Assembly (NCBI RefSeq): GCF_014334135.1
Contig: NZ_CP060497.1
Coordinates: 1,798,001 to 1,862,000, forward strand
Source: Olivibacter sp. SDN3
GTDB taxonomy: Bacteria; Bacteroidota; Bacteroidia; Sphingobacteriales; Sphingobacteriaceae
Length of the DNA: 64,000 nucleotides
Direction of reading: 5' to 3'
Below the pieces are notes generated by a model. It worked only from the letters and a program-made list of their open reading frames with translations, was not told the DNA's origin and made no database searches. Shown here piece by piece: positions 27,500-35,762 of the stretch (positions are counted from its first letter, which is position 1; every line of letters starts with the position of its first letter). A program made the position numbers and the translations under genes.

Positions 27500-27850
27500 A
27501 TGCGATTCATCATTGATCTTATTGTAACGGGTGTTGCCATTATGTTGGCTGCCTACGTTATTCCGGGCGCCGAAGTTTCTGGGTTTTGGAGCGCGGTACT
27601 CGCAGGGGTTCTAATTGCGTTGGCAAACGCTACAGTAGGTACCATCCTCAGGTTCTTTACTTTGCCGCTCAATATATTAACACTAGGACTGGTATCTTTC
27701 GTTATTACTATTCTAATGGTCATGTTAGTGAGTAACATTATGAGTGGTTTTTCGGTTAGTGGCTTTTTCTCTGCGATGTTTTTTGCTATCCTAACAGCTA
27801 TCATCGAAATGATTCTTGGTGGTTTATTTGGTACTAATAAGGTTGAATAG
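27500..27850 (+). CDS. Phage holin family (holin_4_2-like) small membrane protein
   Basis: 116 residues with four hydrophobic helices and glycine-rich turns, almost no soluble part; 'LPLNILTLGLVSFVI' is typical of the Phage_holin_4_2/YvlD family. Despite the name, chromosomal members are ordinary inner-membrane proteins of unknown function, and no lysis genes are nearby. Start ATG 27500 lies about 30 bases after the predicted transcription start. Confidence 0.8.
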   Translation: MRFIIDLIVTGVAIMLAAYVIPGAEVSGFWSAVLAGVLIALANATVGTILRFFTLPLNILTLGLVSFVITILMVMLVSNIMSGFSVSGFFSAMFFAILTAIIEMILGGLFGTNKVE

Positions 27851-30723: not shown

Positions 30724-32535
30724 CTATAGTCCTTTGGCGATGGCTTCATAAATTACGTCTTGTATCCTTGATCTAATATTTAGGTCTAATAATTTATTGG
30801 TAACTGTTGGGTGCACCCGGTTGGCTAAGAATATATAGGCTAATTGATGTTCAGGATCGATCCAGATGCATGTGCCCGTATAACCGGTATGGCCAAAAGT
30901 AGCGGGAGAAGCCAATTTCGAAGGATAGGCCTTTGAAATATCCGGATCCCATCGATCAAAACCTAGTCCTCTTCTGCTAACGGCGGATTGCTTCGTAGTA
31001 TATTCATCGACAATTGCGTTGGAAAAGTATATCTCACCACCATAAGTGCCCCTATTTAACAGCATTTGCGCATAGATCGCTAGATCGTTGGCCGAACTAA
31101 ATATGCCTGCGTGCCCAGCTACACCGTTGGCCATGGCCGCGCCCTGATCGTGTACGTAGCCTTGTAACAGTGTATCCCTAAAAGAGATGTCGCGTTCAGT
31201 GGGTACAAGCTGTTCTTTGGCAAAACGAAGGCGTGGCCTATATCCTGTTTTATACATACCCAATGGAGCATAGAATTCTTCCTGAACATATTTTTCAATG
31301 GGTTCCGACGATTGCTGTTCTACCACCTCCTTCATGACATACATACTGATATCACTGTAAACGTATGTCCCCGCATTTTTAATAGGTGATTGAAGCATCT
31401 CTGGCCACATCACCTGCTCATAGTAGTTAGAACGCAGGTAACGGCCGTCGGCTAATTTGACACGGTGCGTAACGGATGAATCGCGACTGATATCCCCCGG
31501 TTTCAGGTTTTTATAGAAAGGGATGTACGGAATAAAGCCCGCCTGATGGAGCATCACATCCCTCAATTTTACATTGTTTTTATTTGTCCCACGGGCTTTT
31601 AATAGATAATGCCCCATGGTTTGATTGAGGTCGATTTTTTGCTGTTCATGAAGACGCATGACGGCCAAAGTAGTGGAGGTGATCTTACTGATGGATGCCA
31701 TATCGAAAATGTCGGTTGGAAGCGTTGGCTGTTTACGTTCATAGGTATGAAAACCGTAACTCTGTTCAAAAATAACCTGTCCGTTTTTTACAATCATCAC
31801 TACTGCGCCCGGAGTTGCTTCTTCAGCAATAGCTTCCCGCATGATTTCGTCAATAGGCTCAGAGAGATTGCGACTGCTGATTCCTACGTTTTCTGGTAAT
31901 GTATATCCTAAACGGGTTTTTACGGTACTGAAGCCACTGCCAGCTGTATAATGTGGAGAAATATTTTCCCTCAGGCGGGTATTGATCGCAATACCGCCAA
32001 AAATGGTAGAGGCGCTATGCTGCGCTGCAATTTCAGAGGTGTCTTGCGACCAAACGATAGGGAGATCATAATCATCCAACAATGCCAGCCTTAACGGGGA
32101 ACCAAAGCCGCAAATAATAAGCTGCTTACCGATAGATTCATTGTTTATGAAGTCAAGAACTGCCTGGTTCGCCAAAGCATCGTCAGAGATCTGTACGATG
32201 AGTAAGTTGTGATATTTGAGCGTATCTGCCAGCTCTTTGAGATTATCCATCTCTGGGATGCATTGGAAATGACTGATTGGCGCATATTGGCCTAACCTAT
32301 TGTCAAAAGCAGCTGCATAAGTGAAACCGAAGCTGATACTAGCTATTCTTTTTTCCTGTAGCCTTTTTAAAGGGATGATGCCCTGTTCATTATTCAAAAT
32401 CAACGTGCTTTGAATGGATTCCCGTTCTTGAGCTATATGGTTCTTGATATGTTCTTTCTGCGCTGTTTGGGCACATGCACTGAATCCTATTAGAAAGAAA
32501 AGAAAAAGTAATTGCAATTGTTTGGTGAGATGCAT
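30724..32535 (-). CDS. Lipoprotein: GH3 C-domain-like region fused to a class C beta-lactamase-type serine hydrolase
   Basis: 603 residues. A signal peptide ends at a lipobox ('LIGFSAC'), so it is probably an envelope lipoprotein. Residues about 40-205 resemble the C-terminal domain of GH3 glycosidases ('LILNNEQGIIPLK', 'STIFGGIAINTRL'), but the catalytic GH3 barrel is missing. Residues about 230-600 are a penicillin-binding-like hydrolase: nucleophile 'SISK' (SxxK), second motif 'YSD', third motif 'HTG'. Full-length Bacteroidota relatives carry the GH3 barrel in front. Function is likely cell-wall related, peptidase or esterase, but this is inference. Confidence 0.85.
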   Translation of the reverse strand: MHLTKQLQLLFLFFLIGFSACAQTAQKEHIKNHIAQERESIQSTLILNNEQGIIPLKRLQEKRIASISFGFTYAAAFDNRLGQYAPISHFQCIPEMDNLKELADTLKYHNLLIVQISDDALANQAVLDFINNESIGKQLIICGFGSPLRLALLDDYDLPIVWSQDTSEIAAQHSASTIFGGIAINTRLRENISPHYTAGSGFSTVKTRLGYTLPENVGISSRNLSEPIDEIMREAIAEEATPGAVVMIVKNGQVIFEQSYGFHTYERKQPTLPTDIFDMASISKITSTTLAVMRLHEQQKIDLNQTMGHYLLKARGTNKNNVKLRDVMLHQAGFIPYIPFYKNLKPGDISRDSSVTHRVKLADGRYLRSNYYEQVMWPEMLQSPIKNAGTYVYSDISMYVMKEVVEQQSSEPIEKYVQEEFYAPLGMYKTGYRPRLRFAKEQLVPTERDISFRDTLLQGYVHDQGAAMANGVAGHAGIFSSANDLAIYAQMLLNRGTYGGEIYFSNAIVDEYTTKQSAVSRRGLGFDRWDPDISKAYPSKLASPATFGHTGYTGTCIWIDPEHQLAYIFLANRVHPTVTNKLLDLNIRSRIQDVIYEAIAKGL

Positions 32536-32564
32536 AGAACGATCACTGATAATTTAGTACATTT

Positions 32565-32595: not shown

Positions 32596-32804
32596 GTGTT
32601 TTTATTTATAGTGTTCAAGCTTCCGTCATTTAATGACGGAGGTATGTGCAATAAAAATTAATTTGGTGTGCATGAGTGCTACGCCGTAGTGGCACTCTAT
32701 TTTGCCACTACAGGCTTTTATATATATAGGAAATATAAGATAGTTTTATAGAATAGTAAAAATACGAACAGGCAAAAATCATATTTAAATATCTTGAAAG
32801 TATT

Positions 32805-32835
32805 TTTGTTTGCTAAATCTTTCGCTGTAGGTTTG
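32805..32835 (+). promoter_or_regulatory. Promoter of the Mom-like gene (TTTG-N19-TAGGTTTG)
   Basis: TTTG at 32805-32808, 19 bases, and a perfect TAnnTTTG at 32828-32835; the ATG follows 11 bases later, so the leader would be very short. Confidence 0.75.
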
Positions 32836-32846
32836 TATAAATATTC

Positions 32847-33644
32847 ATGGAAAACTTACCGCAGATAATTAAACAGTTTGTAAAACAACTTCAAAAAGAG
32901 ATAAAGGAAGACGTGGTCTGTCAAAAACAATCGTCGGCGGTGTATCTCGTGTCCTTACGTGGATTAGCCACAACATTTGTCGTTTACCGAAGTTTGCTAC
33001 TAAATGTTTGCCACCAGGAAGATATGTTCGGTAGTCTTGCCGTACATATTGATGAAGATCTGCTGCAGACGAAGATGGATATTGTGATAGCCAGAATAAC
33101 GGCGATTGCCGGTAAAGCGAAAAGAATCTACGCGCGGAAAACCACGCTGGCAAGAATTGATAAGCACACGGCAATGGCTTTTCAACAAGCCTATCATCTA
33201 CAGGTCCCTTTGCCAGGTAAATATCGATATGGACTGTTTGTGGAAGGGGAGCTGATGTCTGTCGCCGTTTTTAGTGGTGGGAGACGACTGTTTAATAGCA
33301 CAACCACCAGTCATCGGTCTTTTGAGTTAATACGGTTTTGCCACCAGTCAAATCATTTGGTAGTAGGCGGACTAAGCAGACTGATCAAGGGGTTTATTCA
33401 AGAGTTTAATCCAGGTGATATTGTTACCTATGTAGACCGGGACTGGTCTGACGGGAAAAAATATCTTCAACTGGGTTTTACTTTCATTGATAATCTCCCC
33501 GCCCAGCGTTTTTATGTCGATGCGGAATCGGGATTACGCTATCATGAAAAGCAATTCCAAAAAATGAAGGATAGGCTGTGCCAATCAAAAAAATACACAA
33601 TGGTAGAGAATCTAGGAAGTGCCAAAATGCGCTTGAAGGTTTAA
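32847..33644 (+). CDS. Mom/GNAT-like domain protein
   Basis: 265 residues, soluble, no signal. The C-terminal half (about 125-225) resembles the acetyltransferase-like domain seen in phage Mom-related and homing-endonuclease-associated proteins: 'YGLFVEGELMSVAVF', 'FELIRFCHQSNHLVVGG', 'LSRLIKGFI', 'IVTYVDRDWSDGKKYLQLGF'. Mom itself modifies adenine in DNA, but catalytic residues cannot be checked here, and no phage genes surround it. The N-terminal 120 residues are unrecognised. It has its own promoter. Function unknown. Confidence 0.7.
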   Translation: MENLPQIIKQFVKQLQKEIKEDVVCQKQSSAVYLVSLRGLATTFVVYRSLLLNVCHQEDMFGSLAVHIDEDLLQTKMDIVIARITAIAGKAKRIYARKTTLARIDKHTAMAFQQAYHLQVPLPGKYRYGLFVEGELMSVAVFSGGRRLFNSTTTSHRSFELIRFCHQSNHLVVGGLSRLIKGFIQEFNPGDIVTYVDRDWSDGKKYLQLGFTFIDNLPAQRFYVDAESGLRYHEKQFQKMKDRLCQSKKYTMVENLGSAKMRLKV

Positions 33645-33716: not shown

Positions 33717-34874
33717 ATGAAAAGAAAACTTCGTATGGGTATGGTTGGCGGAGGGATAGATGCTTTTATTGGATCTGTCCATCGTGTGGCCGCCAGAATG
33801 GACGGCCTAATAGAGCTGGTTTGTGGAACTTTTAGTGTTAACCCTGAGATATCAAAGGCATCGGGTGAAGCACTGTTTGTAGATCCCAACAGAGTTTACG
33901 AAAGTTATCAGGAGATGATAGAAAAAGAAAGCCAATTGCCTGAAGATGTGCGGATGGATTTTGTAACCATCGTTACACCAAATTTCGTGCATTTTGACCC
34001 TGCGCGTTTAGCCTTGGAAAATGGTTTTAACGTGGTGATAGAAAAGCCAATGACGTTTACTCTGGAAGAGGCAAAGCAACTGAAAGAGATCGTTGATCGT
34101 ACAGGACTAACTTTGGCGCTCACACACACGTATAGTGGTTATCCTATGGTGAAACAGGCGAAGGTTATGGTGAAGGAGAACAAGCTTGGGCAAATTAGAA
34201 AAGTGATCGTTGAATATCCGCAAGGATGGTTGAGTCGTTTGAGTGAACGTGAAGGGAACGCACAGGCAGCATGGCGTACTGATCCCAAACGATCGGGTAA
34301 AAGCGGTGCAATGGGTGATATCGGAACGCATGCGGCACATCTGGCAGAGTACATTACCGGAGCAAAGATAACCGCTTTGTGTGCCGACCTACATACTATG
34401 GTCGACGGACGTTTGCTGGATGACGATGGGAACGTACTGTTACGTTTTGATAATGGAGCAAACGGCGTGCTTATCGCCTCACAGGTTGCTGCTGGAGAGG
34501 AAAACGCCATTCGTATCCGGGTTTATGGTGAAAAAGGGGGGCTGGAATGGATACAGGAAGAACCGAATAGCTTATACCTAAAATGGTTAGATGAACCCAA
34601 GCAGGTTTACCGCACAGGAAATGCTTACTTAAGTGATGTTGCGAAACATAATACCAGAATCCCTTCAGGTCACCCGGAAGGATTACTGGAAGCCTTTGCT
34701 AATATATACCGGAATTTCGCACTAACGGTCTCAGCGAAATTAAATGGAGAAACGCCATCCGAAGAGATACTTGATTTTCCGACCGTGGATGACGGTGTGC
34801 GTGGCATGGCTTTTATCGATAATGTGGTGGCTAGCAGTGCAAGTAGCGAAAAGTGGACAGACTTTGTAGTGTAA
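33717..34874 (+). CDS. Gfo/Idh/MocA family oxidoreductase
   Basis: NAD(P)-dependent sugar or polyol dehydrogenase family. N-terminal Rossmann domain with 'GMVGGGIDAFIGSVHR' (about 8-23) and the family 'VVIEKPMTFTLEEA' (lysine and proline of the EKP motif near residue 112). The C-terminal substrate domain has the typical 'GAMGDIGTHAAHLAEY' with conserved Asp and His. 385 residues, substrate not readable. Stop is three bases before the miaA ATG, so the two share a transcript. Confidence 0.9.
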   Translation: MKRKLRMGMVGGGIDAFIGSVHRVAARMDGLIELVCGTFSVNPEISKASGEALFVDPNRVYESYQEMIEKESQLPEDVRMDFVTIVTPNFVHFDPARLALENGFNVVIEKPMTFTLEEAKQLKEIVDRTGLTLALTHTYSGYPMVKQAKVMVKENKLGQIRKVIVEYPQGWLSRLSEREGNAQAAWRTDPKRSGKSGAMGDIGTHAAHLAEYITGAKITALCADLHTMVDGRLLDDDGNVLLRFDNGANGVLIASQVAAGEENAIRIRVYGEKGGLEWIQEEPNSLYLKWLDEPKQVYRTGNAYLSDVAKHNTRIPSGHPEGLLEAFANIYRNFALTVSAKLNGETPSEEILDFPTVDDGVRGMAFIDNVVASSASSEKWTDFVV

Positions 34875-34877
34875 AGC

Positions 34878-35762
34878 ATGATCTGTATTCTCGGTCCAAC
34901 CGCTTCCGGAAAAACGGCATTAGCTGTCCATGTGGCGGGTAAAGTAAATGGCGCCATAATAAGTGCAGATTCCAGGCAGGTTTTCAAAGGGATGGATATT
35001 GGGACGGGTAAGGATCTCGCAACATACGGGACAATTGATCATTATCTTATTGATATTCTTGAGCCTGGCGATGATTATAGCGTGGCGCATTTTCAGGACG
35101 ATTTTTATGAGGCCTTTTTGGATATTCTGTTAAAACAAAAAAGGCCTATCCTCTGTGGCGGTACGGGAATGTATATGCAATCTGTATTACAGGGATATAC
35201 CCATACTTCAGTCCCGGTTAACCCTGAGTTGCGTGTTCATTTGGAGAAAAAGGACATAGAGGAATTGGAGAAATTTTTTCTGTCAATACCTAAGCCTGAT
35301 ACTTATAGGGCCGATATAAGCACAAAAAAAAGGCTTATAAGAGCTATAGAAGTAGCACAGTGGTCTATGCATAATAAATCCCCTGTAGGTAGAACTGGCA
35401 TAGAAAGTGTCATATTTGGTCTCTCTCTTCCCTTGGAAGAACGCAGACGTAGAATAACGAATCGCTTGGAAGAGCGTTTAAAGGCGGGGATGCTGGATGA
35501 GGTGAGTGCGTTGCTTAAGCAAGGTGTACCCGAAGAGAAATTGAAATTCTATGGCCTGGAATATAAATATGCGACAGCATACTTATTAGGAGAAATGGAT
35601 TATACTTCTTTTTTTGAAAAGCTGAATACCGAGATACACCGCTACGCAAAAAGACAGATGACCTATTTCAGGAAAATGGAGAAGGATGGTTTGCGTATCC
35701 ACTGGCTGGATGCCACTGCTCCTATAAAGAAGAATACAGAAAAAATCCTGCGGTCAATATGA
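34878..35762 (+). CDS. miaA: tRNA dimethylallyltransferase (MiaA) homologue, divergent
   Basis: MiaA adds a dimethylallyl group to N6 of A37 in tRNAs reading UNN codons. Visible: P-loop 'GPTASGKT' (6-13), 'SADSRQVFKGMDIGTGKD', 'YLIDILEPGDDYSVAHF', 'GGTGMYMQSVLQGY' and the C-terminal 'RYAKRQMTYFRK'. Several positions differ from standard MiaA: GTGKD instead of GTAKP and YFRK instead of WFRR. 294 residues. Some Bacteroidota carry two MiaA genes; this may be the second type. Follows the oxidoreductase gene by three bases. Confidence 0.85.
   Translation: MICILGPTASGKTALAVHVAGKVNGAIISADSRQVFKGMDIGTGKDLATYGTIDHYLIDILEPGDDYSVAHFQDDFYEAFLDILLKQKRPILCGGTGMYMQSVLQGYTHTSVPVNPELRVHLEKKDIEELEKFFLSIPKPDTYRADISTKKRLIRAIEVAQWSMHNKSPVGRTGIESVIFGLSLPLEERRRRITNRLEERLKAGMLDEVSALLKQGVPEEKLKFYGLEYKYATAYLLGEMDYTSFFEKLNTEIHRYAKRQMTYFRKMEKDGLRIHWLDATAPIKKNTEKILRSI

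Follow-up and report, generated by a model that had tools for sequence, protein, structure and literature searches.

The window analysed here, a stretch of 64,000 nucleotides from the single 6.12 Mb contig of Olivibacter sp. SDN3, carries at 32847..33644 on the + strand an ORF that begins with ATG and encodes 265 residues with no internal stops, as a sequence-only reading of this DNA had placed it. We refer to it as the Mom-like gene, based on the resemblance of its product to Mom and to the C-terminal part of Hef in PHROG, AlphaFold2 (AF2), Foldseek and VIA comparisons. It is single copy in this genome and was present in all five of the searched genomes of the genus. The protein is basic (pI 9.6, with a median of 8.98 across 56 relatives) and carries a net charge of +11 on its C-terminal GNAT domain and of +2 on its N-terminal domain, the latter giving weak support to a role of that domain in holding nucleic acid.

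The gene had been described as sitting alone, with miaA in a different transcript unit, but we found it to be the first of three same-strand genes that end in miaA, separated by gaps of 72 and 3 bases. The middle gene (33717..34874, + strand) encodes a Gfo/Idh/MocA oxidoreductase by Pfam, and the third (34878..35762, + strand) is the miaA paralog that we call miaA2. In the 72-base gap the + strand terminator scan, the + strand promoter scan and a search for TAnnTTTG were all empty, and the three genes likely form one transcript as judged from these scans. A promoter belonging to the Mom-like gene itself had also been proposed, and there is a candidate at 32805..32835 (+ strand), TTTG-N19-TAnnTTTG, which ends 11 bases before the ATG and agrees with what we take to be the Bacteroidota-type consensus. 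This is the sole exact match in the 64 kb, but such a match is not rare by chance (0.41 expected; at least one in 29 of 100 shuffles), and an E. coli-type scan was blank at this site, its one nearby + strand match (32525–32553) being at chance level (4 found against 4.5 expected in the region). Further upstream, at 32674–32711, two overlapping inverted repeats of 9 pairs each lie between the Mom-like gene and a divergent beta-lactamase-fold gene; they are terminator-like, yet are upstream of both gene starts. Pfam searches of 13 proteins (12 neighbors and one encoded elsewhere) bore out the earlier statement that there are no phage neighbors, as only one phage-named family was identified; the other named neighbors were IF-2, NusA, RimP, a lactonase-type propeller, a glycosyltransferase, the beta-lactamase-fold protein, Gfo/Idh, MiaA, a peptidase S46, an OstA-like protein and TilS. 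The one phage-named neighbor (27500–27847, 5 kb away) encodes a small membrane protein with a match to PF04020 Phage_holin_4_2 (E 1.1e-27), a family common in bacterial chromosomes.

The C-terminal half of the protein (residues 97–265, 33135..33641, + strand) had been proposed to be Mom/GNAT-like, and the alignment, the AF2 model of the full protein (mean pLDDT 95.5 and pTM 0.90, from a 56-sequence alignment), Foldseek and VIA are in agreement here: by its predicted structure the protein belongs to the GNAT superfamily, and the lack of a GNAT fold that the sequence-only reading had named as evidence against itself did not occur. Among PDB structures, Mu Mom took Foldseek ranks 1 and 2 (8bv8 at the top, E 4.6e-6); 85 PDB chains matched at E ≤ 0.001, and the best 50 of these were titled acetyltransferases (or complexes containing one) or Mom. 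VIA matched residues 96–265 to 8bv8_A with a Z of 12.9 and an rmsd of 3.4 over 159 residues, while ordinary GNATs scored 12.4–13.9 over 126–146 residues, such that Mom ranked 30th by Z, tied with these. As RimI (5isv_A, Z 13.7) is level with Mom in this comparison (tied within 1), as are other N-terminal acetyltransferases, and as a common fold does not give the substrate, one can envisage that this GNAT was taken over to act on a protein or a small molecule, possible acyl acceptors being, e.g., MiaA2, a prenyl-adenine derivative or a ribosomal protein. We consider this improbable, based on the sequence ancestry of the protein, which is that of Hef/Mom, and on the fact that Mom covers the most residues (the 159 above) among the best 50 VIA rows.

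By sequence alone the match to Mom is weak. An HMM check against Mom, which had been suggested, gave a score under the cut-off for the Pfam Mom family PF25680 (E 0.11, 12.6 bits against 27.1; 16 of the 56 relatives reached E ≤ 0.1, the best being 0.0062) and a weakly positive result for the "Mom-like" PHROG 1384 (E 0.0011). The strongest match was to the phage "homing endonuclease" PHROG 3339 (E 3.4e-39), followed by the "HNH endonuclease" PHROG 559 (E 3.4e-30); NCBIfam and PADLOC returned zero matches naming a function, and phmmer zero matches among PDB sequences. Fifteen residues of the domain (R97, F112, H117, G129, L130, F142, E160, R163, F164, G174, G175, L179, D197, F211 and G257) are invariant in the 56 chromosomal relatives, and the same columns are 98–100% conserved in 81 phage proteins, except for G175 at 91%. 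We take the active site of Mu Mom to comprise Asp149 and Ser124, and the PDB title of 8bv8 calls the S124A form of Mom inactive. A profile comparison with one Mu Mom sequence was not significant (probability 0.1); in it, with the numbering counted from it, Mom D149, E108 and R111 correspond to D197, E160 and R163 of the Olivibacter protein and Mom S124 to V173; based on this alignment S124 is apparently not kept, and the chemistry may therefore differ from that of Mom. Mu Mom (PF25680, phrog_1384, 8bv8) is the nearest solved fold by Foldseek, from which our protein differs in its Pfam score, its extra nuclease-like N-terminal domain, the apparent change at S124 and its lack of phage context.

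The N-terminal residues 1–96 (32847..33134, + strand) were identified, from an alignment with 81 phage proteins and a model of this domain, as a degenerate Vsr-like nuclease domain, of what we take to be the EDxHD type, whose catalytic residues have been lost. Six nuclease columns (E183, D212, E223, H230, H241 and K244 in PTm1 numbering) are 98–100% conserved in the 81 phage rows, which include near-copies, whereas none of these is the commonest residue in the 56 chromosomal rows (H241 is H in 9% and H230 in 2%), and the Olivibacter protein has kept 0 of the 6, having P5, L34, V45, a gap, L51 and V54, respectively. The chromosomal set was arrived at after 25 of 80 named loci were dropped at an alignment score cut of ≥0.75. 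Modelled alone, the domain had a pLDDT of 87.3, and VIA matched it to 3hrl, an endonuclease-like protein (Z 8.2, rmsd 2.8, 82 residues), and to 3r3p, the I-Bth0305I catalytic domain (Z 6.7, rmsd 2.9, 80 residues); Foldseek with this domain alone found nothing significant (best E 0.53). Due to the Foldseek blank and the middling VIA scores, the evidence for a nuclease ancestry comes chiefly from the sequence alignment and from full-length matches to the BFVD viral models, in which the whole chain, N-terminal domain included, matches phage homing endonucleases such as that of phage PA5oct (259–306 columns and TMq 0.70–0.82 in the best 20 rows).

There were matches to 298 phage records, and most of those listed were annotated as (Hef-like) homing endonucleases. 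A viral search with a Hef alignment confirmed 472 loci, of which the best 80 were kept, while the same search with the window protein alone confirmed 0 loci; plasmids gave no match to the protein at E 1e-5. The Campylobacter phages (e.g., L133) had up to 11 Hef-like places per genome, and in phages CPX and CP8 the best Hef-like match lies under no annotated gene. In PMC7824862, the Mom domains of jumbo phages are described as typically fused to REase-fold nucleases, a composition read as modification plus restriction, and five momylating enzymes are counted in PA5oct. The Mom-REase fusions and the Hef homing endonucleases appear to be a single phage family interpreted in two ways. These phage proteins (phrog_3339, phrog_559) share with ours the order of a Vsr-like nuclease and then a Mom-like GNAT in the C-terminal half, the conserved GNAT residues, and a structural match over the whole chain, and the homology to Hef extends over both C-terminal domains by PHROG, alignment and BFVD. 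Unlike them, the window protein is bacterial, has no counterpart to the phage N-terminal part, has lost the nuclease residues and is usually encoded beside miaA2; its gene is not phage-borne, being located among the cellular genes of a bacterial genome.

Loss of the nuclease residues together with a kept GNAT core looks like domestication, and the dead nuclease suggests that the direction was from phage to chromosome; the relation to Hef is itself apparent in the comparisons above, and it is this descent that the residue losses suggest. In a tree of the GNAT domain one branch (SH-aLRT 100) separates 16 chromosomal from 27 viral rows, which gives no direction; a motif cut had removed 6 of 22 chromosomal rows (L047, L053, L077, L109, L114 and L118) and 4 of 31 viral rows. 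The dN/dS of the Mom-like gene was 0.05–0.25 in all 15 close pairs, with similar values for miaA2 (0.05–0.18) and values ~3–13-fold lower for Gfo/Idh (0.006–0.04 in 12 pairs). Across the class, 46 of 376 genomes, from ten families, carry the gene. A copy in G407 with a reported TGA, considered as a pseudogene, was rejected as such, its ORF being intact. The idea of a domesticated modifier of nucleic acid fared well as to descent, given the Hef relation, the nuclease loss, the conserved GNAT core, the purifying selection and the spread over ten families, but poorly in its picture of a solitary gene with miaA merely nearby. Homologs found only in prophages, the other outcome named as contrary to it, did not turn up either: judged from their neighbors, the loci that we read adjoin miaA2 or other cellular genes. 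It could be argued that the gene is simply a decaying homing endonuclease carried along beside miaA2 without function, as its nuclease residues are gone and free-standing Hef enzymes target conserved genes, phage U5 hef, for example, cleaving nrdB according to PMC2988022. We find this very hard to credit with a dN/dS well under 1 in 15 of 15 pairs, a GNAT core invariant in 56 of 56 relatives, and the repeated joint presence or absence with MiaA2 described below.

MiaA prenylates N6 of A37 in tRNA, and UniProt already names a MiaA 1 and a MiaA 2 in Bacteroides. The window's MiaA2 is a true homolog with a catalytic core (185.9 bits against PF01715, cut-off 23.6) and, by tree placement and active-site residues, a second, diverged paralog of the tRNA dimethylallyltransferase; the gene for MiaA1 lies outside the window, at 3123116–3123835 on the − strand of this genome. 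It is 23–33% identical to the MiaA1 rows. The MiaA1/MiaA2 split in the tree had 100/100 support, and the MiaA2s of carriers of the Mom-like gene grouped into a single clade (28 rows; 94/85, not starred), adjoined by the MiaA2s of families f31 and f32, from genomes without a Mom-like match. MiaA2 has kept the P-loop and the counterparts to E. coli D42, R167, R217 and Q282, while its motifs differ from those of MiaA in several places (GTGKD in place of GTAKP, G-L-E-Y-K in place of T-V-G-Y-x-E, R at M221 and H at R276). A comparison of 92 Mom-linked MiaA2s with 7 from genomes without the gene showed L/V against R at E. coli position 207 and Y/F against W at 285. Four of the 33 MiaA1 rows compared were short (L170, L175, L177 and L178), the MiaA2 of L039 was excluded and L233, a 100-base stretch, was unused. 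The four short rows are housekeeping miaA1 frames of this genus, L170 being that of the window's genome, with no ATG, GTG or TTG before the P-loop; all four have I-K-T-L-I-T-I-V-G-P-T, which in the two whose codons were read (L175 and L178) begins ATC-AAR and suggests ATC or a similar start codon. The MiaA2 of G022 (L232:3879-4640) has 253 residues and matches the IPPT profile at positions 1–79 and 150–242, its missing middle being presumably the tRNA-binding insertion.

The Mom-like gene and MiaA2 are linked and co-inherited. The 72 bases noted earlier between the gene and the genes that follow it are indeed there, but the miaA is a regular neighbor: of the best 80 among 120 named loci, 76 have a same-strand miaA2 downstream, 13 directly (gaps of −23 to 150 bases) and 63 with Gfo/Idh between. 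Gfo/Idh separates the pair in Olivibacter, Sphingobacterium and some Parapedobacter, and the two genes overlap by 4 bases in Parapedobacter, Anseongella and Runella; the four loci without a downstream miaA2 were L047, L063, L100 and L115. In the first 20 of a further locus set, which overlaps the 80, miaA2 was downstream in 16. Eight families other than the home family and f30 supplied 34 carriers; a MiaA2-type copy, typed by score, was present in 32 of these, adjoining the gene in 21 and not seen next to it in 11. For 10 of these 11 the flanks showed other neighbors that recur within a genus (e.g., in three g233 genomes) and not between genera, with no other constant partner among the neighbors read; in the eleventh, G670, the contig ends ~120 bases past the gene. 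The two carriers without MiaA2 were G772, with one MiaA1-type match, and G702, in which no miaA was found. In three loci (L038:2903-6318, L040:2720-6135 and L340:3380-6798) the Mom-like copy overlaps the stop of mutS, identified by Pfam, by one base, and in G026 (L041) it follows mutS at a contig end; in G014 and G026 MiaA2 is elsewhere.

Within the family (251 genomes), PF01715 matched in all and the Mom-like gene was present in 145. Cross-tabulated, 144 genomes had both the gene and at least two PF01715 matches, 1 had the gene with a single match, 1 had at least two matches without the gene, and 105 had neither the gene nor a second match, with the reservation that a Fisher test of such counts treats genomes as unrelated. 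In G601, the single-match carrier with an assembly of 620 contigs, the one copy is of the MiaA2 type and adjoins the gene, no MiaA1 having been found, while the extra match in the non-carrier, G455, is an IPPT-like enzyme of a lanthipeptide cluster and not MiaA2. This G455 protein (L231:175-5490; 243 residues) is encoded with a LanC-like protein, an FMN-dehydrogenase-like protein and short GG-leader peptides, and is possibly a peptide or nucleotide prenyltransferase. In the phylum sample the gene is present in 8 of 392 genomes, each of them with two PF01715 matches; at least two matches were also seen in 54 of the 384 non-carriers, 49 of these outside the class. MiaA2-type copies without the Mom-like gene occur in f31, f32, f33, f37 and f55 (tree-placed) and in G043 (by score), from which it follows that MiaA2 does not need the gene; G043 was the only one of 22 non-carriers to have such a copy, the second matches of G044 and G049 being contig-edge fragments only. 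Throughout, tree placement was confined to the second copies that were fetched, the rest being assigned by their scores or simply counted. When presence of the gene is mapped onto a MiaA1 tree of 33 genomes, 5 changes are required (4–6 in the bootstrap), of which the well-supported, starred branches compel 2; several events therefore underlie the association, but few of them are proven. MiaB was considered as a co-varying gene and rejected, since all 41 of the 41 genomes examined, carriers and non-carriers of the Mom-like gene alike, have it.

Co-inheritance of this kind could instead arise if the genes travel together as one mobile unit but serve unrelated functions, which would suit the fact that the genes are neighbors in most carriers and the patchy distribution in the family, seen even within genus g2, where G005 has the gene and two PF01715 matches and G029 has no gene and one match. 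Against such a unit, Gfo/Idh is missing between the pair in 13 of the 76 linked loci among the best 80 of 120, and some genomes retain both the gene and a MiaA2-type copy although the two do not adjoin; we regard this explanation as quite unlikely, though not as far-fetched as that of a decaying endonuclease.

Because MiaB is present in 41 of 41 genomes, the ordinary MiaA1/MiaB pathway appears untouched and the Mom-like protein and MiaA2 would be an extra. The GNAT is nearest to an N6-adenine acyl-type modifier and is co-inherited with a member of the class that prenylates N6 of A37, which together point to adenosine in RNA. We consider the chances evenly balanced that the GNAT, nearest to Mu Mom and derived from the C-terminal half of a Hef-type protein, acts with MiaA2 to modify adenosine in RNA, probably tRNA. 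It is the genetics that points to RNA as the kind of substrate; by analogy with the characterized families, the substrate would be RNA, the base adenosine, and the order of reactions and the group added would be as follows. The nuclease domain would have decayed into a non-catalytic domain; MiaA2 would act on an RNA adenosine, probably at position 37 of a subset of tRNAs; the GNAT would add an acyl-type group to this adenosine or to a neighboring one; and the product would be a hypermodified adenosine atop the ordinary MiaA1/MiaB pathway. TmcA and Elp3 are tRNA-modifying GNATs with partner domains other than those of the window protein, and offer an analogy for a GNAT domain acting on RNA.

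A competitor to an RNA substrate would be momylation of chromosomal DNA, with the GNAT modifying genomic adenines as Mu Mom does and the link to miaA2 being operon economy. That the best Foldseek match is a DNA-modifying enzyme is consistent with this, as are the copies that follow mutS and the prediction, in PMC7824862, that the phage relatives are Mom-nuclease restriction-modification fusions. However, a pure DNA modifier would not be expected to be co-inherited with a second MiaA, including in the 11 carriers where the two were not seen adjacent, no restriction partner recurs among the neighbors read, and PADLOC gave 0 matches; momylation of DNA seems to us unlikely, on a par with the protein or small-molecule substrate discussed above.

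Returning to the modification of RNA by the GNAT and MiaA2, we tentatively propose, as the less probable and more specific form of this idea, that a phage homing-endonuclease/Mom acyltransferase was domesticated in Bacteroidota and forms a two-enzyme pathway with a second MiaA dedicated to it, the product being an adenosine, acylated or prenyl-acylated, that has yet to be described and that is probably located at position 37 of tRNA. The Mom, Hef and MiaA families are all known; the arrangement here is that of a Mom/Hef-derived GNAT kept as the partner of a second MiaA. A full-text literature search, covering titles and abstract openings and extending to few subscription journals or preprints, returned no description of a Mom-like gene beside miaA or of two miaA genes in Bacteroidota. 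If this proposal is true, a selfish phage nuclease gene would have become a cellular RNA-modification enzyme through loss of its nuclease while keeping its Mom-like domain, and the second MiaA carried by many Bacteroidota would gain a function, one that predicts a nucleoside that can be looked for and found. The role of the Mom-like half of Hef proteins would, in turn, become testable in harmless bacteria.
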